DNA from: an uncultured Actinomycetes bacterium
GTDB taxonomy: Bacteria > Actinomycetota > Acidimicrobiia > Acidimicrobiales > RAAP-2
Direction: 5' to 3'
Assembly (NCBI GenBank): GCA_903875425.1
Contig: CAIQWC010000037.1
Span: 1 to 64,000 of the forward strand
DNA length: 64,000 nt
The position numbers were made by a program, and so were the translations under genes. The notes below the pieces were generated by a model. It searched no databases, had not been told where the DNA came from, and saw only the letters and a program-made list of their open reading frames with translations. Shown here piece after piece: positions 26,657 through 35,113 of the stretch (the stretch's first letter is position 1; each line of letters starts with the position of its first letter).

Positions 26657-28414
26657 GTGACAGGAATGGGTGGCTCGCTCAGTAGCCAGAACACTGCGGT
26701 GACGCAGCACTTCGAACGACTCCTCCTTGAGGAGTTCATGATTGCGCTTATTTTGGTGGCCCTCGCCGGCGCGATCAGCGCACTGTGGTTTCAGCGAGCC
26801 GGTCGCGGCGCAATAGAGGAAGTAGCGGAACCAACGGCTCGGCGGATCCTGCGCATTGGTTTTGCGCTGACTTGGATTATCGACGGCCTACTGCAGCTCC
26901 AAGTGCAGATGCCCATTGGCATGCCCACACAAGTCGTTGCTCCCACCGCCGCGTCGGCTCCGGCGTGGCTTGCGTCACTGGTCAACAGCGGGGTCAATGC
27001 CTGGCTTCGTCATCCCGTGACTGCGGCGGCTGCCACAGTGTGGATCCAAGTCGGTCTTGGCTGCTGGCTCCTGGTGGCGCGCAGGGGTCGTTGGTCACAA
27101 GCTGCGGGCATCGCGAGCGCGGCGTGGGCTCTGGGTATTTGGATCTTTGGAAACAGTCTCGGAACACTATTCGTGTCACCAATCAGTTGGATGACCGGTG
27201 CACCGGGAGCAGTGGCCTTCTACGTGGTGGCCGGCGGCTTGATCGCTCTTCCTGATCGGCTCCTCCTCGACAAGCGAACCGCCTCGTGGGCATCTCGCGC
27301 CATGGGTGTGCTGTTGCTCTACTTTGCCGCGCTGCAAGCCTGGCCGGGTCGAGGGTTCTGGTCAGGAGGCAGGCCCTCGAGCCCGGGAGAAATTCCGGGT
27401 ATGGCTCAAGCCATGGCGTCGGTGTCGCAACCCGGTCCCACAGCCTCCCTTCAACACTGGTTCGCGAACTTCACCCTTAGCTACTCATGGCTCTACAACC
27501 TCGCCGTGGTGCTCGTGCTGCTCGGCGTCGGCGCGGCCCTGTTGTCGACGAAGCCCCGATTGGTGATGCCCGTGGCCTGGGTCTATCTCGGAGCATGCTT
27601 GGTGAACTGGGTACTGGTTCAAGATTTTGGCGTCTTTGGTGGTATGGGTACTGATCTCAACTCGATGGTGCCATGGGCGCTGTGCACGATGGGCATCGCA
27701 TATCTCGTGAAGGCTTCGGCCACGCAGGAGATCCCAGTCACCGTCACCCTCGAGCGATCGGCGTCCGAGCGCGCACGGCTGCGTCAGGTTGGCTCACTCT
27801 CGGCATTCTTGGTCTTTGCCTTTGGGGCTGTACCCATGCTGCTGCTTCCGATTCTGCCCGGAGCGAGTGCCGATGCGGCCGTAGCCTCAGGAGCCCAGGT
27901 GGCCCCTCTTCAAGCCATGGCGCCCAATTTCACCTTGGTCAATCAGAACAACCAGAGGGTCAGTCTCTCGTCGTTGCAAGGTCATCGCGTGGTGCTTGGT
28001 TTTCTTGACCCGGTGTGTACGAATGATTGCCCTGTGGAAGCCCACGAGTTCGAAGCTGCCGCTCAACGAGTAGCGCCCGATACGGTCTTCGTCGCGGTCA
28101 ATACCAATCCGCTCTACCTTGAACCAGCCTCCTTGAAGGCGTTTATCACTAACGAAGGCCTGAGCGGCTTTCGAAACTTTGAATTCCTCACCGGGACCAA
28201 GGCCCAACTCCATTCGGTGTGGCAGAACTACGGCGTGGACGTTCAGATTGGACCCAATGGTTCCATGATTATCCATAATGAACCCATCTACGTGATCGCG
28301 TCGAATGGCCAGATGACTGCAACCTGGGCGAGCCAAGCGGGCGCGTCGGCGTCGAATCCCATTGGCCAATCCAACACCGGCATCATCGTGACTAAGGTCA
28401 ACGCTGCGTCATGA
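26657..28414 (+). CDS. Multi-spanning membrane protein fused to an SCO1/SenC-like copper-chaperone domain
   Basis: The 585-residue product has about nine to ten hydrophobic segments (about residues 28-405) followed by a thioredoxin-fold domain (about 425-585). That domain carries FLDPVCTNDCPVEA, a CxxxC pair at Cys454 and Cys458, and a late His540 in IIHNEPIYV, the copper-ligand set of SCO proteins. SCO proteins deliver copper to the CuA site of cytochrome oxidase, which fits the coxBAC genes downstream. The membrane part is not recognised. The start is GTG with GGAGG seven bases upstream (26645-26649). The stop overlaps the lipoprotein start (ATGA). Confidence 0.8.
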   Translation: MTGMGGSLSSQNTAVTQHFERLLLEEFMIALILVALAGAISALWFQRAGRGAIEEVAEPTARRILRIGFALTWIIDGLLQLQVQMPIGMPTQVVAPTAASAPAWLASLVNSGVNAWLRHPVTAAAATVWIQVGLGCWLLVARRGRWSQAAGIASAAWALGIWIFGNSLGTLFVSPISWMTGAPGAVAFYVVAGGLIALPDRLLLDKRTASWASRAMGVLLLYFAALQAWPGRGFWSGGRPSSPGEIPGMAQAMASVSQPGPTASLQHWFANFTLSYSWLYNLAVVLVLLGVGAALLSTKPRLVMPVAWVYLGACLVNWVLVQDFGVFGGMGTDLNSMVPWALCTMGIAYLVKASATQEIPVTVTLERSASERARLRQVGSLSAFLVFAFGAVPMLLLPILPGASADAAVASGAQVAPLQAMAPNFTLVNQNNQRVSLSSLQGHRVVLGFLDPVCTNDCPVEAHEFEAAAQRVAPDTVFVAVNTNPLYLEPASLKAFITNEGLSGFRNFEFLTGTKAQLHSVWQNYGVDVQIGPNGSMIIHNEPIYVIASNGQMTATWASQAGASASNPIGQSNTGIIVTKVNAAS

Positions 28415-29559
28415 ACAAGGCCTTTGTTCTGAGCGCGATATCGCTCGCCGCGATGCTCGGGCTCTCAGCTTGTGCGCAGTCGAATTCCATGAACACCATG
28501 CCCTCGATGGATTTGAACCTCGGTCCTTCCCTTAATGCCGGTGTCGTAGACGGCGGCGTCTCCGAAGTAGTAGTTCCGATGGGTCACTTAAGCGATCCAC
28601 GGAATACCTTCTACCAAAGTTTTACGTCGCTCCATGGGGGAGCGTGGCGTTTGAGTACACCGCATGGCTCCGGCACGAACGGGGGCATTGTGGTGGCTTC
28701 ACCGTCCGATGGTGCCGTCGTGATTCGCCAGTTTGATCAGTCCCACGTCGCCGCCCTGAGCCCGCTGCTCCATGGCCAGCAAGTACCGCTTGGCGGCCGC
28801 ATCGTAGGGTCACTAGCTCAGTCTCCGAGTGCCGTGGCAATGCACGGCTCAACGGTGTACCTCGTCGACGTACAGGGCTCGCTCGAGAAACTCTCGATGA
28901 ACGCGCAAACGGCGACCGTCGTTACGACGCAGCGCCAGCTCGCCAGCTCGCCAGCAGGGAAGCGTTGCGGCGTAGCAGCGATCACCGCAGTGGCAGTAAA
29001 CCGCTCCGGCCAGATCGCTCTGGGGGCGCGTTGTGACAAGGGCGGAACGAACGCCGTGTTCGTAAAGAACCGGTCATCGTGGTGGCTCGGAGGCGCGCCG
29101 ACTACGACGGCTAACACCGTTATGCGCCTCGACGCCGCGGGAGATGGCTTCTCGGCACTGGTCCGCACGGCGGGTGCAGCGCCTTCGGTTCGCAGCATCG
29201 CGGTAAGCGGTTCCGGAGCTGAGGTGTCTGCGACGACGGTCTGGAGCCCACCAGTTGGTTTGATGTACAGCGTTGTTCGATCAAGTGTCCCCGATGGCCA
29301 TGGCGGCTATGACATACTGCTTGCAAACAGCACCGATGCCTCAGCAACTGATCTAGCGCCCGGTTCTTTGGCCGTGCCAATTGGCAAGCGTCTTCCCCTG
29401 AGTGCTCAGGGCATTGTCATCGCTACCGTGGGTGGATCTCAGGCGACAGAAGTGGTCGAAGTCATCGGTGGAACGGCATCATTTGTCGTGCCGGGTAGGC
29501 AGTCAATGTGGCGAGTGATTCAACGCGTCAAGGTGGCGATTCCTTACGGCGCTGCGTGA
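28411..29559 (+). CDS. Lipoprotein of unknown function in the oxidase block
   Basis: The 382-residue product begins with a signal peptide and lipobox GLSAC (Cys21), so it should be anchored on the outer face of the membrane. The mature part is rich in Gly, Ser, Val and short predicted strands with recurring patterns such as GSLAQSPSAVAMHGSTVYLVD and AVAVNRSGQIALGA, which suggest a beta-propeller, although no repeat is clear enough to count blades. The Met-rich start of the mature protein (SNSMNTMPSMD) might bind copper; this is inference. ATGA overlap with the SCO-fusion gene implies a joint role. Confidence 0.7.
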   Translation: MNKAFVLSAISLAAMLGLSACAQSNSMNTMPSMDLNLGPSLNAGVVDGGVSEVVVPMGHLSDPRNTFYQSFTSLHGGAWRLSTPHGSGTNGGIVVASPSDGAVVIRQFDQSHVAALSPLLHGQQVPLGGRIVGSLAQSPSAVAMHGSTVYLVDVQGSLEKLSMNAQTATVVTTQRQLASSPAGKRCGVAAITAVAVNRSGQIALGARCDKGGTNAVFVKNRSSWWLGGAPTTTANTVMRLDAAGDGFSALVRTAGAAPSVRSIAVSGSGAEVSATTVWSPPVGLMYSVVRSSVPDGHGGYDILLANSTDASATDLAPGSLAVPIGKRLPLSAQGIVIATVGGSQATEVVEVIGGTASFVVPGRQSMWRVIQRVKVAIPYGAA

Positions 29560-29601
29560 CGAGTTTGCCAAACGTGGGTAATTCGTGGTGAGGTGGGTGC
29601 C

Positions 29602-30471
29602 ATGGGGTGGATGAGCCAAACGTGGAGCCTTAGTCCACTATGGGTGCCAGTGCTGATCTTGATCGGCATTGAAGAGTTGGGTCTGTCGCGCCTACGCACG
29701 CGGATGAATCCTCAGCGCTTCCGGCGCTGGCGGATCAAGGGATATGTATACGCCTTGGCCCTGAGCATCGTCGCGTTCATTGATTCAAGCCCCGCCATGG
29801 GCTTCTCGATGGATCACCTCACTGCTCACATGATCATTCACATCGTGGAGATGTTTTACATACCCTGCGTACTCGTGGTGTGTGCTCCTGGGCTACCGGC
29901 ACTATTTGCGTTACCCCTCGGAGCGCGTCGAAGGTACCTCACGTGGTGGCATCGCGGCGGGGGACGATTCTTGAAGCGAAGCGTCGGGAGACTCATGGTC
30001 GCGCCACTCTTTGCGATCGCCGCTTTTAATGGCGCCATGGTGCTGTGGCACATCCCCCGGATATTCAATTTTGCGATGTGGCATCCCGCCATTCACACGT
30101 GGGTAATGACGCCCAGTTTTATCATCGCTGGGTATTTGTTCTGGAGAGTGATTTTGCGATCTGGACCATGGGCCCCTCGGGGATCAACGAGGGTGCAGCT
30201 GTTGGAGGTGGGTGTCACTGCTGCCGAAATGCTGGTGCTCGCTATGGCCATGTCGATCTTTAGCCACAGCGCTTGGTACTCCATGAACATCGCAATGATC
30301 GGCTCCAAGGCGGCGTGGCACGATCAACAGTTCGCCGCCGGCGTGCTGTGGATCTGCGGAGACCTATGGGTGATTCCGACGATTTACGTCATTCTTCGGC
30401 GGTTGATGGTCACGTCGGGAAGCGTTAGCGACGCTTTTGAGCGATTTTTGGGCCGAGAAGTCGACGCCTAA
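29602..30471 (+). CDS. ctaG: Cytochrome c oxidase assembly protein, CtaG (caa3-type) family
   Basis: This membrane protein has about seven transmembrane helices and the features of the caa3_CtaG family: MDHLTAHMIIHIVEMFYIP, FNGAMVLWHIPRIFNFAM and HDQQFAAGVLWICGDLW. The family is needed for correct assembly of copper-heme oxidases. The start ATG 29602 lies just after a GAGGTGGG ribosome binding site; GTG 29593 is in frame three codons upstream. It follows the lipoprotein gene by about 40 bases. Its stop overlaps that of the convergent small membrane protein by four bases. Confidence 0.88.
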   Translation: MGWMSQTWSLSPLWVPVLILIGIEELGLSRLRTRMNPQRFRRWRIKGYVYALALSIVAFIDSSPAMGFSMDHLTAHMIIHIVEMFYIPCVLVVCAPGLPALFALPLGARRRYLTWWHRGGGRFLKRSVGRLMVAPLFAIAAFNGAMVLWHIPRIFNFAMWHPAIHTWVMTPSFIIAGYLFWRVILRSGPWAPRGSTRVQLLEVGVTAAEMLVLAMAMSIFSHSAWYSMNIAMIGSKAAWHDQQFAAGVLWICGDLWVIPTIYVILRRLMVTSGSVSDAFERFLGREVDA

Positions 30472-30818
30472 TCTTCGGTATGGGCTTCGGCTTCTGCCAA
30501 CTCTTTGAGGTAAGCGTTCCAGGCGTCGAGTTTTACTTGGTCAGCTGCATTGGCCACGTCGGCGCGAGCCGTCACCTTCTTCGGCTTCGTCGCCACCTCG
30601 TCCTCATGGAGTAATTTCCACCACATATAGACGGCAAAGCCTTCAAAAATAGGCCATTCAAAGACATAGGCCCATGAAAGCGTGTTTCCTCCCAGGGCTC
30701 TGCTTAACTCGAATGCGAAGGCAGGAGCGCAAAGGATGGTTGCCAACGCCAGGCCAACATGGACCTTCCCCCTGCCACCACCTGCGTTCTTGGGAGGTGG
30801 GGCTGGCGTCATGGGCAA
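30468..30818 (-). CDS. Small membrane protein, 116 aa
   Basis: The product begins with a Pro/Gly-rich tail, then has two hydrophobic helices (about residues 19-38 and 46-66: GLALATILCAPAFAFEL and WAYVFEWPIFEGFAVYMWW) and a charged cytoplasmic C-terminal half rich in Lys, Glu and Ala. No family recognised. It is the only minus-strand gene in the oxidase block; its place suggests a link to the oxidase. Starts at GTG/ATG codons near 30818; ATG 30812 is an alternative. Confidence 0.65.
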   Translation of the reverse strand: MPMTPAPPPKNAGGGRGKVHVGLALATILCAPAFAFELSRALGGNTLSWAYVFEWPIFEGFAVYMWWKLLHEDEVATKPKKVTARADVANAADQVKLDAWNAYLKELAEAEAHTED

Positions 30819-30897: not shown

Positions 30898-30939
30898 ATG
30901 ATAAAAATCAAATACTTTAAAAAGGGAGGGAACGGATGA
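30898..30939 (+). CDS. 13-codon leader ORF coupled to the cupredoxin gene
   Basis: An ATG at 30898 is preceded by GAGGGAG about eight bases upstream and encodes MIKIKYFKKGGNG. Its TGA overlaps the ATG of the cupredoxin gene (ATGA). The tiny product is very basic and encoded by AT-rich codons unlike the neighbours. The ribosome binding site and coupling suggest it may be translated to regulate or enhance translation of the next gene; it could also be chance. Confidence 0.35.
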   Translation: MIKIKYFKKGGNG

Positions 30940-31655
30940 AGCGACTTATCTGGGGAGTCATCTCCCTTGTCATCGCGGTAGTTGCCGTTGGCCTAGTGGT
31001 TTTTGGATTTTCCAAACAGCAGTATCACGCCCCCGATGGAACCGTGGCAGCAAAATCAGTTGGCATGATCCAATATCAGGGCAAGACTCGTGATCATGTA
31101 GTGCTGACCTTTGGTACGTATGCGAGTGCACAGGGCAAGTACGGAACCATGCTCTCGGTTGATGGAGCACCCAACGTTCCTAGTGGCGAGGTTCACCCAG
31201 GAGGTAATCCGCAGTGGCCTGCCTACTCGCCGAGTAACCAGTTCTCGGTGCCCGCCGGTGCCTATGTCACCGTGGTGTGGCATCAGTACGACTCTGGCGG
31301 TGCGGTCAACAATCCTTACTTCGCACGCGCGCACGGCACGGTCGGGGGAACCGAGACCGTCAATGGCAAGACGGTGACTGGTGTCGATGGCAACAACATG
31401 GCCCACACCTTCACCGTTCGTCCCGCGCCGGGAACCGCTTCTGGTTTCTTTCTGAGCGTCCCTTCTCCGGTGTCCAAGCTTGGCGATAATGCGACCAATA
31501 CTGCCGGAGGGCAGGTCGTCACCTTTAGTTTCATCGCTGGAGCCAAGGGTCTCTACGCGTGGAACTGTGAATTCCCCTGTGGTCTAGGAATTGGAGGGTT
31601 TGGAGCAGTGATGAGCAGCTACGGATACATGTCGGGGTACCTCCATGTCGTCTAA
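30936..31655 (+). CDS. Membrane-anchored cupredoxin-like protein with divergent CuA-type motif
   Basis: The 239-residue product has one N-terminal membrane helix (about residues 5-27) and an exported domain. Near the C terminus is AHTFTV (His157), then NCEFPCGLGIGGFGAVM with Cys211 and Cys215 spaced as in the CuA motif C-x3-C, and MSSYGYMSGYLHVV with Met226 and Met232. The second His of CuA (C-x3-C-x3-H) is Ile here, and a stretch is inserted before the Met. It may bind one copper and pass electrons to the oxidase, as sulfocyanin-like proteins do; this is inference. AGGGAGGG is its ribosome binding site. It overlaps coxB by 11 bases. Confidence 0.7.
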   Translation: MKRLIWGVISLVIAVVAVGLVVFGFSKQQYHAPDGTVAAKSVGMIQYQGKTRDHVVLTFGTYASAQGKYGTMLSVDGAPNVPSGEVHPGGNPQWPAYSPSNQFSVPAGAYVTVVWHQYDSGGAVNNPYFARAHGTVGGTETVNGKTVTGVDGNNMAHTFTVRPAPGTASGFFLSVPSPVSKLGDNATNTAGGQVVTFSFIAGAKGLYAWNCEFPCGLGIGGFGAVMSSYGYMSGYLHVV

Positions 31656-32475
31656 TCACGAAGATATCAAGCGCGAGCAGATTGCCGAGACCGTCGACGG
31701 TTGGACGCACAACGGACCGTTCCATCGCCGGCCAAGTTTCAGAATTTTGATTCTGGTCATTCTTTTTACGGCCTTCGGTGTTTGGGCTGCTGTGTTCTTC
31801 ACCGACAAGATCATGCCGTCGATCCTTTCGTCGCAGATGAAGTCGGTCCACGACACGATCATCTTCTTCACGATTCTGGCGGCGCCGGTCGCGGCTTTGG
31901 TCTACGCGATCGCCGCTTACAGCATTTATAAGTGGGGTCATGGCCATGGGGAGCAAGCTCCACCGGACGGTCCACCGATGCGTGAAAACAGCTTGACGAC
32001 CAGTATCTGGCTGGGAGCGTCGACGATTCTCGTGGTCGTAGTTCTCGTGTGGGGTATGACGGCGCTGAGCTCGGAGAACCAGGGTCAGTTGCGGCCGGTG
32101 ACGATTGATGTCTATGGCCAGCAGTGGTTGTGGACCTTTAAGTATCCAGGGACCGGCGTTGAGTCCAATCAGTTGGTAGTGCCCGTGGGTCGGCAAATTC
32201 GCTTTGTGGTCACGAGTTACGACGTCACGCATGGATTCTGGCCCAACTCGTTGGGCGTACAGATCGATGCCAACCCGGGGTTCAAGACCTACATTACTGC
32301 TGACCCCAACGCGACCGGTCAGTTCGCGGTTCGTTGTTCACAGTTGTGTGGTTTGTATCACGCCTACATGGATGCCAACGGCAAGGTAGTCACACCAACG
32401 CAATTCTCATCGTGGCTGGTTAGCCACGGTGCATCAACAACATCCGCCAACGCATACGCGTTGGGTGGAAAGTAA
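31645..32475 (+). CDS. coxB: Cytochrome c oxidase subunit II
   Basis: The product of 276 residues has two N-terminal membrane helices (about 33-55 and 75-95) and a C-terminal CuA domain. The CuA ligands are His196 (DVTHGF), then CSQLCGLYHAYM with Cys231, Cys235, His239 and Met242, all present. The conserved aromatic path is seen in YGQQWLWTFKYPG. There is no fused cytochrome c domain. It overlaps the cupredoxin gene by 11 bases and precedes coxA by 11 bases. Confidence 0.96.
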   Translation: MSSNHEDIKREQIAETVDGWTHNGPFHRRPSFRILILVILFTAFGVWAAVFFTDKIMPSILSSQMKSVHDTIIFFTILAAPVAALVYAIAAYSIYKWGHGHGEQAPPDGPPMRENSLTTSIWLGASTILVVVVLVWGMTALSSENQGQLRPVTIDVYGQQWLWTFKYPGTGVESNQLVVPVGRQIRFVVTSYDVTHGFWPNSLGVQIDANPGFKTYITADPNATGQFAVRCSQLCGLYHAYMDANGKVVTPTQFSSWLVSHGASTTSANAYALGGK

Positions 32476-32486
32476 AGGGGATCCGG

Positions 32487-34406
32487 GTGAGTACAACAGC
32501 ACTCCTTGAAGACACCAAGTTAGGACCCAAGGCGGGTGGCCTATACCGTCACCAAAACTTCCTGACCGGAATTTTGACCGGTGGGGTAGCCATGTTCCTA
32601 GGTTGGCTCGTCGCGCACTACACCGTCCAAAACAATGCCAACTGGGGTTCGGACATGGTGGTTACCGTGACCATGGCCGCCTGGGTTGTCGGCTTCATGG
32701 CTGGCATCGGTGCGTTTAATGCGGTCTTCCGTTGGATGGTTGGTCACGACCAAGATCACGACGATGAGCTCTATGCGGCCGGCGTAAGCCAAGGTTGGAG
32801 GCGTTACTTTAAGTTCTGCACTGACCACAAGGTCGTCGGCACTCAGTACCTGGTCTTGGTCATGTCGCTCTTTGCGGTCGGCGGAACCTTGGCCATGATT
32901 ATCAGAACGCAACTGATCTCGCCCAACAACCATCTGATTTCACCGCAGACCTATAACGCAGTGATTTCGATCCACGGCATGATCATGATCATCGCGACCA
33001 TCATCATGGTGTCGGGTCCATGGGCAAACTTCATCTTGCCGATTCAACTTGGCGCCAAGGACATGGCCTTCCCAAGACTGAACGCCTTGAGTCTGTGGTT
33101 GGTAGTTGCAGCCGTACCGCCGATCTTGATCAGCCTCTTCATCGGAGGCGTGGATTCGGGATGGACGACGTACGCGCCACTCTCGGTACAGTCGCCCCCT
33201 GGCCAGGACGCGTTCGCAATCACGATCATCACCTTCGTGGTTTCGGTAACCGTTGCTGGCATCAACACCATCACGACGACAATGACGATGCGAGCGAAGG
33301 GTATGACCATGGGTCGCCTTCCCATCTTCGTATGGGGCTCCCTTGTGGCCGCTGGCCTTGGCCTGTACGCGATGCCCGCCTTCTTGGCCGCACAGTCGAT
33401 GCTGCTCACCGACCGAGTAGTCGGAACGAGCTTCTTCGCGCCGGCGCAAGGTGGCGCAGGCTGGCTCTATGAAAACATCTTCTGGATCATGGGCCACCCC
33501 GAGGTCTACGTAATTTTGATTCCGGGCGTTGCCGCCGCGATGGACGTTGCGTCGACCTTCTCGAGAAAGCCACTCTTTGGCTACAAGATTGCCGTCGGGG
33601 CATTCTTCGGTCTTGGGGCCCTCGCGTTGATGGTGTGGGCTCACCACATGTTCACCACCGGTTGGGCACCCAACTTGGCTGACCCGTGGATGCTCACCAC
33701 CGAGCTCATTTCGATTCCTACCGGCGTGTTCTTCTTAGTAATTATCGGAACACTTTGGCGAGGGTCAATTTGGACTCGATTGCCGATGTATTGGGTCTAC
33801 TTGTTCTTGTGGAACTTCATCATCGGTGGTGTGACTGGTATCTACCTTTCGGACGTACCTGCAGACCAGTACTTCCACGGCAACATGTTCGTCACCGCTC
33901 ACTTCCATTACACCTTGCTGGGTGGAGGCATGATTGGAGCTACTGCGGCGCTGTGTTACTGGTTCCCCAAGATGAGCGGCAAGATGCTCAATGAGCGCAT
34001 CGGAAAGCTCGCCTTCTGGGTCATCGCTATTTTCTTCCAGGTGACGTACTTCGGTATGTTCTGGGAAGGCTTCCAGGGTATGCCTCGCCGAATCGCGGCC
34101 TACGCGCCTTACTTCCACAGCGCAAACTTGATCGCAACGATCGGCGCCTATGGCCTGTTCCTCGGCTGGGTGATTTTGCTCTACGCCATCATCCACTCAT
34201 GGATGAACGGCAAGGTAGCGCCTTCCAACCCATGGCAGGCAAAGTCGCTCGAGTGGCACATTTCTTCACCACCACCACTCGAGAACTTCCTCGTTGACCC
34301 CATCGTGACCTCCGACCCTTACACCTTCGGTGAGGGTGAGCCGATGGCACCGGCGAAGCAACCAAGCCCGGCTACGGTCGGCTCCACTGAAGGGGGGGCA
34401 CACTGA
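32487..34406 (+). CDS. coxA: Cytochrome c oxidase subunit I
   Basis: The 639-residue catalytic subunit has twelve or more membrane helices. It carries the low-spin heme ligand region SIHGMIMIIATI, the CuB motif with His-Tyr cross-link GHPEVYVILIPG, the CuB pair WAHHMFTTG, and the heme ligands in VTAHFHYTLLGG. These mark an A-type heme-copper oxidase. A preceding hydrophobic part (residues 25-80) may be one or two extra helices. The start is GTG 32487 with a GGGGATCC-type weak ribosome binding site. The stop overlaps the coxC start (TGATG). Confidence 0.97.
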   Translation: MSTTALLEDTKLGPKAGGLYRHQNFLTGILTGGVAMFLGWLVAHYTVQNNANWGSDMVVTVTMAAWVVGFMAGIGAFNAVFRWMVGHDQDHDDELYAAGVSQGWRRYFKFCTDHKVVGTQYLVLVMSLFAVGGTLAMIIRTQLISPNNHLISPQTYNAVISIHGMIMIIATIIMVSGPWANFILPIQLGAKDMAFPRLNALSLWLVVAAVPPILISLFIGGVDSGWTTYAPLSVQSPPGQDAFAITIITFVVSVTVAGINTITTTMTMRAKGMTMGRLPIFVWGSLVAAGLGLYAMPAFLAAQSMLLTDRVVGTSFFAPAQGGAGWLYENIFWIMGHPEVYVILIPGVAAAMDVASTFSRKPLFGYKIAVGAFFGLGALALMVWAHHMFTTGWAPNLADPWMLTTELISIPTGVFFLVIIGTLWRGSIWTRLPMYWVYLFLWNFIIGGVTGIYLSDVPADQYFHGNMFVTAHFHYTLLGGGMIGATAALCYWFPKMSGKMLNERIGKLAFWVIAIFFQVTYFGMFWEGFQGMPRRIAAYAPYFHSANLIATIGAYGLFLGWVILLYAIIHSWMNGKVAPSNPWQAKSLEWHISSPPPLENFLVDPIVTSDPYTFGEGEPMAPAKQPSPATVGSTEGGAH

Positions 34407-35113
34407 TGAGCGTCGTCGACGAACACAGTAGCCACGAGCACCACGGTCACTACGCCGAGGGCGGAAATCATCACGATACGCCACAAGCTAAGCACCGCAA
34501 AGAGCACATGCTCCTGTGGATGCTTATCGGTGGAGACATGGTCTTTACTGCCCTGATCATCTTTGCGTGGTTCTACCTCAAGGCATTGAACGTAGAAGGC
34601 ATGTGGCGTGGAGCGGCTTGTAAGCCAAACTTCAATGCCGGGCTTAACCAGTCGTGCACCGATGGGATTGGTAATGCCATTAATCACATCGTTCCTACGG
34701 CGGCCCCACTCCACACCTTCGCGATCGCCATTTTGGCGATTGTTGGCGCTGGGTTCATGTGGTTTGCCGAGGTGCAGGCCCGCCAGGGTGCTAGCGGAAA
34801 AGCGACGACCCCGCTGCTTGGCCTTGGTGCTCTAGCAATCCTTGGGGCCCTGGTTTGGCAGATCTATCAGTTCCAGGTTCTGCCTTTCACCACGGTTCAA
34901 GGTGCGTACGCTTCGAGTTTCGAGTACATCATGGGCTCGAACGTCGGACACTTGGCTTTGGTCTCGATTGTGGCGGTCGGTCTGTTTATCCGTGGGTCAA
35001 AAGGACTGCACGACAATGGGCGCTGGTACCAGATCCACCTCTCCCGGCTGTTTGCGGTTTGGGTAGCCTTCAGCGTCACCTTGCTAGCGTTTATGGTTAC
35101 CTTCTTCAATTAA
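34406..35113 (+). CDS. coxC: Cytochrome c oxidase subunit III
   Basis: The 235-residue membrane protein starts with a His-rich cytoplasmic segment (SSHEHHGHYAEGGNHHD), then about five helices. Family features include LWMLIGGDMVFTALIIFAWFYL, the VPTAAPLHTFAIAIL region and GSNVGHLALVSIVAVGLFI. A 25-residue loop with two cysteines (ACKPN, QSCTDG) lies between the first two helices on the outside and may form a disulfide. TGATG overlap with coxA. It is the last gene of the block. No cytochrome bc1 genes are in the window. Confidence 0.9.
   Translation: MSVVDEHSSHEHHGHYAEGGNHHDTPQAKHRKEHMLLWMLIGGDMVFTALIIFAWFYLKALNVEGMWRGAACKPNFNAGLNQSCTDGIGNAINHIVPTAAPLHTFAIAILAIVGAGFMWFAEVQARQGASGKATTPLLGLGALAILGALVWQIYQFQVLPFTTVQGAYASSFEYIMGSNVGHLALVSIVAVGLFIRGSKGLHDNGRWYQIHLSRLFAVWVAFSVTLLAFMVTFFN

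Follow-up and report, generated by a model that had tools for sequence, protein, structure and literature searches.

A putative CuA-derived cupredoxin with a replaced histidine, encoded beside a haem-copper oxidase in Acidimicrobiia

The gene at 30936..31655 on the forward strand of the window (the whole 64,000-nt stretch of DNA analysed here) encodes, as judged from its reading frame and translation, its homologues and its predicted fold, a 239-aa membrane-anchored and putatively CuA-derived cupredoxin, here denoted CUP. In our main reading, to which we give a probability of roughly 0.6, CUP is a CuA-derived carrier with a Cys2-His-Met2 site that works in place of cytochrome c for the oxidase of the same operon. 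The family to which it belongs is previously unnamed. Full-text searches of the open literature on NrfD together with cupredoxins, and on Acidimicrobi* together with cupredoxins, sulfocyanin or blue copper, gave no account of it. Coordinates below are on the forward strand unless stated otherwise.

The CUP gene and its putative copper site

CUP is present in one copy in the window genome (1.6 Mb). A ribosome-binding-like GGGAGGGAACGG lies upstream of its ATG, and at its other end the gene, whose stop ends at 31655, overlaps by 11 nt with coxB, whose ATG is at 31645. Residues 2-26 (30939..31013) form an N-terminal transmembrane helix according to the AlphaFold2 model and a hydropathy maximum of 2.9, and the remaining domain presumably lies outside the membrane on the extracytoplasmic side.

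The site was read from the translation as H157, C211-EFP-C215-GLG-I219, then GGFGAV-M226-SSYGY-M232-SGYLHVV. The initial annotation had compared His157 (31404..31406) and Cys211-x3-Cys215 (31566..31568 and 31578..31580) to the CuA layout; these residues are correct in the translation and, as putative ligands, align by hhalign with H196, C231 and C235 of the CoxB encoded downstream. Its further claims, that the second CuA His is replaced by Ile and that a Gly-rich loop is inserted before the Met residues, also agree with the translation: Ile219 (31590..31592) is found at C215+4, the place of CoxB H239, and the loop occupies residues 216-231 (31581..31628). No His is present anywhere from C211 to M232, as CuA or type-1 copper sites would need, and the remaining family members likewise carry a loop with a Met at this place. 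In the loop, Met226 (31611..31613) is the residue that putatively takes over as ligand from the lost His, and Met232 (31629..31631) is aligned with CoxB M242 as the putative counterpart of the CuA Met. Both methionines had been given rightly; the ending had been written as M..GxLxV, for which the correct form is M232-x-G-x-L-x-V.

Absent from the initial annotation was an insertion of 37 residues (120-156, 31293..31403) between Asp119 and His157. Asp119 itself (31290..31292) was found in 39/39 sequences of the first alignment and aligns with CoxB D193 in the TSxDVTH motif. The CuA pattern is Hx34Cx3Cx3Hx2M (PMC6189053), and the insertion stretches its H-x34-C spacing to H157-x53-C211.

In order to follow these residues through the family, we used an alignment of 77 members with a mean pairwise identity of 36% (minimum 16%). 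Seven of its 123 well-filled columns are invariant, namely H157, C211, P214, C215, M226, M232 and G234, and these include all five positions whose invariance had been set beforehand as a check (His157, Cys211, Cys215, Met226 and Met232; 77/77 homologues). Invariance in 77 members at this mean identity argues that the motif of C211-C215, H157, M226 and M232 is not due to chance. The spacing from C215 to the Met ranges from 3 to 12 residues (3, 4, 10, 11 or 12), and the Met-x5-Met spacing is kept in 74 of 76 members.

We divided the family into four branches, with labels that are our own. The A type is window-like, carries WNCEFPCG and is membrane-anchored, as is the B type, which carries WQCFVPCG...GNGGPM. 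C-type members are lipoproteins or helix-anchored. The D type has a short loop, PCGxWxMxxxGYMxG, and 6 of its 10 members keep the CuA spacing H-x34-C. The insertion before His157 is present in the A, B and C types and absent from the D type and from CoxB.

Kinship to CuA domains and predicted fold

Window CUP alone gave nothing significant in Pfam, NCBIfam, PDB sequences or plasmid records, and no match to PF00116 (COX2). DUF7489 was dropped as an assignment, its Pfam match (E 0.004) being below the family cut-off. A profile of close CUP relatives had no significant match to any PDB cupredoxin and matched CoxB weakly. The kinship of CUP to CuA depends on a bridge via the short D-type members. 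The D-type profile aligned by hhalign with the window family along the full length of the domain (99.6%, E 7.6e-24), where H, C, C, M and M stay in register, and with a CoxB profile led by window CoxB (95.9%, E 5.6e-9). In the latter alignment H196, C231, C235 and M242 are in register, and H239 has no counterpart but a lengthened loop with Met226 instead. The same profile matched the N2O-reductase CuA domain (E 4.3e-11), nitrosocyanin (E 2.3e-9) and solved subunit II chains (E 2e-5). Similarity to the cupredoxin superfamily was found through this bridge and through one D-type member that passes the Pfam cut-offs for Cupredoxin_1 (E 5e-11) and, narrowly, for COX2 (E 9e-5).

In bovine CuA the two Cys are ligands of both coppers; the first His and the Met complete one copper site, and the second His with a backbone carbonyl completes the other. 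Taken together with the alignments, this scheme indicates that in the CUP family one copper's ligand set is retained and the other's is altered. The best explanation of the sequence comparisons is that CUP descended from, or is sister to, the subunit II CuA domain, and this agrees with the earlier suggestion that it evolved from, or alongside, subunit II, since the family joins CuA domains by profile via its short-loop members. CUP shares with the CuA domains of subunit II and N2O reductase a cupredoxin fold as predicted, the first His, Cys-x3-Cys and the Met in register; unlike them, it has Ile219 for the second His, the lengthened loop with invariant Met226 and the 37-residue insertion. It also differs from the subunit II domain in being a protein of its own, with a single helix, that occurs alongside a normal CoxB. 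A precedent for a cupredoxin CuA with other ligands is PmoD (PMC6189053), although the site of PmoD lies between two monomers and in another part of the fold, and its Cx7MxHxnC motif is not in CUP.

Structure prediction, which the initial annotation had named as a check, pointed to a cupredoxin fold. The AlphaFold2 models of window CUP (pLDDT 67, pTM 0.65) and of a homologue, L037 (pLDDT 68, pTM 0.67), are both beta-sandwiches. For both, the top Foldseek match was rusticyanin (E 2.4e-5 for window CUP, on its pLDDT-67 model, and 1.9e-3 for L037); ba3 subunit II and N2O reductase, the latter by its CuA domain, are among the next, and auracyanin is also among the nearest folds. VIA gave Z 7.3 on the same window model of pLDDT 67, within middling, tied values (7-8.6) against many beta-sandwich copper proteins from which no subfamily was chosen. 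In the model His157 starts a strand, Cys211 ends one and Met232 starts the last strand, as in cupredoxin sites, and the loop 214-231, which includes Met226, has pLDDT below 50. That the ligand residues would meet in space is suggested by homology.

These comparisons bear on how many copper ions the site may hold. The initial annotation had proposed a mononuclear copper electron donor; the role of donor stands as the best inference from context, and the mononuclear part is not established. A one-copper donor of red, green or blue type, with a Cys2-His-Met site or with Cys-His-Met and a bystander Cys, and with Met226 as a structural residue or second axial ligand, is possible and to us clearly the less probable reading. 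It would fit the facts that the lost His is a ligand of the second CuA copper alone and the other copper's set is complete, that the nearest folds include the one-copper proteins rusticyanin and auracyanin, and that nitrosocyanin matches the D-type profile. However, Met226 is invariant and its spacing to Met232 is near-fixed though the preceding loop varies, which suggests a ligand role, and Cys215 is invariant too. Going by the invariance of Met226 we lean towards a binuclear Cys2-His-Met2 centre, in which the second copper may persist.

Oxidase locus and distribution of the family

The gene order in the window is a SCO-like fusion, a hypothetical gene, ctaG, a small divergent gene, CUP, coxB, coxA and a coxC-like gene. 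The coxB gene (31645..32475; PF00116, E 3e-16) encodes subunit II with a complete CuA motif, CSQLCGLYHAYM, in which C231-SQL-C235-GLY-H239-AY-M242 follows a first His in SYDVTHGFW; that CUP directly precedes a normal coxB was correctly noted at the outset. coxA (32487..34406; PF00115, E 6e-120) encodes haem-copper oxidase subunit I, and the gene in the coxC position (34406..35113) encodes a conserved membrane protein with no Pfam match, placed by synteny in homologous loci. Upstream of CUP are the genes for the CtaG (Caa3_CtaG) oxidase assembly factor (29593..30471; PF09678, E 5e-31) and for a membrane protein with a C-terminal SCO1/SenC copper-chaperone-like domain (26657..28414; PF02630, E 1.6e-9, and PF00578, E 6.5e-10). 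Many A-type loci conserve the latter protein, a multi-helix membrane domain fused to a C-terminal SCO1/AhpC-type domain, 5' of CUP and the cox genes. The divergent gene between ctaG and CUP (30468..30818, reverse strand), which encodes a small conserved protein of 116 aa with no Pfam match, is found there in most A-type loci and near CUP in some other loci too. Positions 28411-29559 encode a 382-aa lipoprotein-like protein without a family match that is conserved in the few nearest relatives (L031, L032 and L041).

A coxB gene lies directly downstream of CUP in 49/49 distinct A/B loci examined, including three genomes outside the class; for L067, where stop-to-stop frames overlap in the same order, adjacency was established by inspection. 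The CuA motif is complete in every complete CUP-linked coxB, the coxB of L071 being cut by the contig end. Distances among CUP proteins and among their CoxB partners correlate over 48 loci (r 0.90, a value reached by 0 of 5000 permutations), a correlation to which shared descent contributes. In the CoxB tree the CUP-linked proteins, L083 among them, form a clade of their own, separate from the second CoxB that these genomes encode. Electron donation to the neighbouring oxidase is the best inference from this context, and CUP probably feeds electrons to that oxidase in place of cytochrome c.

The same position could be read as that of a copper chaperone or metallation factor loading the CuA site of CoxB, with the Cys/Met/His cluster holding Cu(I) for transfer. 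A gene adjoining coxB can be an assembly factor, coxB is the constant neighbour of CUP, many of the clusters also contain SCO-like and CtaG genes, and Cys-x3-Cys with Met suits Cu(I). We nevertheless consider this role improbable, because the window operon already has SCO-like and CtaG assembly factors and because the C- and D-type members, whose ligands are identical, lie next to Fe-S/NrfD genes of a different complex with no CuA protein beside them. The ligands would also occupy the electron-transfer site of the cupredoxin fold. CUP did not match the SCO1/SenC domain, which has a thioredoxin fold with CxxxC and His, though the neighbouring SCO-like protein was recognised, and it joins the cupredoxins by profile.

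Statements on the whole window genome rest on family searches. Two COX2 loci were found; the second, phylogenetically separate from the CUP-linked one (G000:C17:39365-39583, L082), presumably belongs to a bc1-linked oxidase. Searches for cytochrome c families returned only a diheme protein (G000:C30), which we take to be QcrC of the bc1 complex on the basis of its two haem domains and the actinobacterial norm. These family searches gave no other Cupredoxin_1 protein and no NrfD.

CUP homologues were found in 32 of 296 sampled genomes of the class and, phylum-wide, in 13 of 396 genomes, three of the 13 lying outside the class. Ten loci come from named Acidimicrobiaceae or actinobacterial MAGs. 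The Acidimicrobium family is rich in them (36/42 genomes), and a member is present in a genome of that family matching Acidimicrobium ferrooxidans DSM 10331 (G014). The close relatives of window CUP are from lake and bog metagenomes.

This distribution leads to another reading, that in acidophiles CUP is an Fe(II) oxidase or the first acceptor of electrons from Fe(II), as an analogue of rusticyanin. One Acidithrix genome is without known Fe(II)-oxidation genes (cyc2, cyt572, cyt579, sulfocyanin and foxCD; PMC8223813), and a-type cytochromes dominate the Fe(II)-reduced spectra of A. ferrooxidans (PMC5143472), both of which would be consistent with such a role. However, those spectra single out no copper-protein absorbance (PMC5143472), the close relatives of window CUP come from metagenomes without sign of iron oxidation, and the link is one of distribution only. 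We regard an Fe(II)-facing role as unlikely, marginally more so than that of a chaperone.

Proposed electron path and related systems

Copper binding, the nuclearity of the centre, contact with CoxB and the upstream donor are what we infer in the following scheme. CUP would keep the full ligand set of one CuA copper (first His, Cys pair and Met), and a Met on the lengthened loop would replace the His of the second copper, most likely giving a Cys2-His-Met2 CuA-like centre. Placed next to the oxidase of its operon, on the external side of the membrane, it would collect electrons there and pass them one by one to the CuA site of CoxB, the job done elsewhere by cytochrome c or rusticyanin. The upstream donor may be the bc1 complex, with Fe(II) as a further possibility in acidophiles; in the window organism the bc1 complex is the only donor candidate seen. 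A redox-silent structural subunit with a Cys211-Cys215 disulfide, which two neighbouring extracytoplasmic Cys and the disulfide between conserved Cys in PmoD crystals (PMC6189053) might suggest, is very improbable given the homology to CuA domains and the co-invariance of the His and two Met with the Cys pair.

Two known proteins are close to the proposed carrier. Rusticyanin is likewise an electron carrier tied to an aa3 oxidase, but it is soluble and holds one copper with Cys-x4-His-x4-Met and no second Cys. AcoP, the green cupredoxin of the Acidithiobacillus ferrooxidans aa3 oxidase (PMC4059628), resembles CUP in its N-terminal helix, long extra-core region, lengthened Cys-Met loop and oxidase cluster. 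Its ligands, in contrast, are H85, C159, H166 and M171 (C-x6-H-x4-M; PMC4059628), that is, one Cys and two His against the two Cys, one His and two Met of CUP. CUP is a candidate for the electron carrier to the aa3 oxidase in iron-oxidising Acidimicrobiaceae, a role for which we found no assigned protein. This link to a respiratory chain that is still poorly understood is open to test. The family also resembles a natural ligand-swap experiment on CuA, and with one small domain the influence of the second His on nuclearity and potential could be measured.

The C and D types were found in 8 loci flanking genes for an Fe-S protein and an NrfD-type membrane protein. The cluster consists of a C-type cupredoxin, a Fer4 dicluster protein, the NrfD membrane protein, in some cases a small secreted or membrane protein, and a D-type cupredoxin (L134:5463-10626, L063:156-4142, L133:5264-10325, L053, L057, L052, L054 and L066). 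No multihaem cytochromes were seen alongside in these clusters. They may encode a quinol:cupredoxin oxidoreductase that looks like a pared-down alternative complex III. For the alternative complex III of Chloroflexus, a proposed partner is the cupredoxin auracyanin (PMC3150298), which, like the C and D types, would serve an Fe-S/NrfD-type quinol complex; unlike them, auracyanin is a two-His type-1 protein and its complex also has multihaem cytochromes.

With branches at a quinol-linked complex and at an oxidase, some members may have a chain that is independent of cytochrome c. Tentatively, and with well under even confidence, we extend this to a wider reading, in which CUP would be a natural CuA with one His changed to Met (Cys2-His-Met2) acting as a stand-alone wire for a haem-copper oxidase, its sisters would serve the quinol-oxidising Fe-S/NrfD complex, and together they would make up a respiratory branch of Acidimicrobiia, iron oxidisers included, that uses CuA-derived proteins instead of cytochrome c. 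C-type cupredoxins also occur in tandem, with up to three adjacent genes (L066:5624-8373, L134:9178-10626 and L133:5264-6654).
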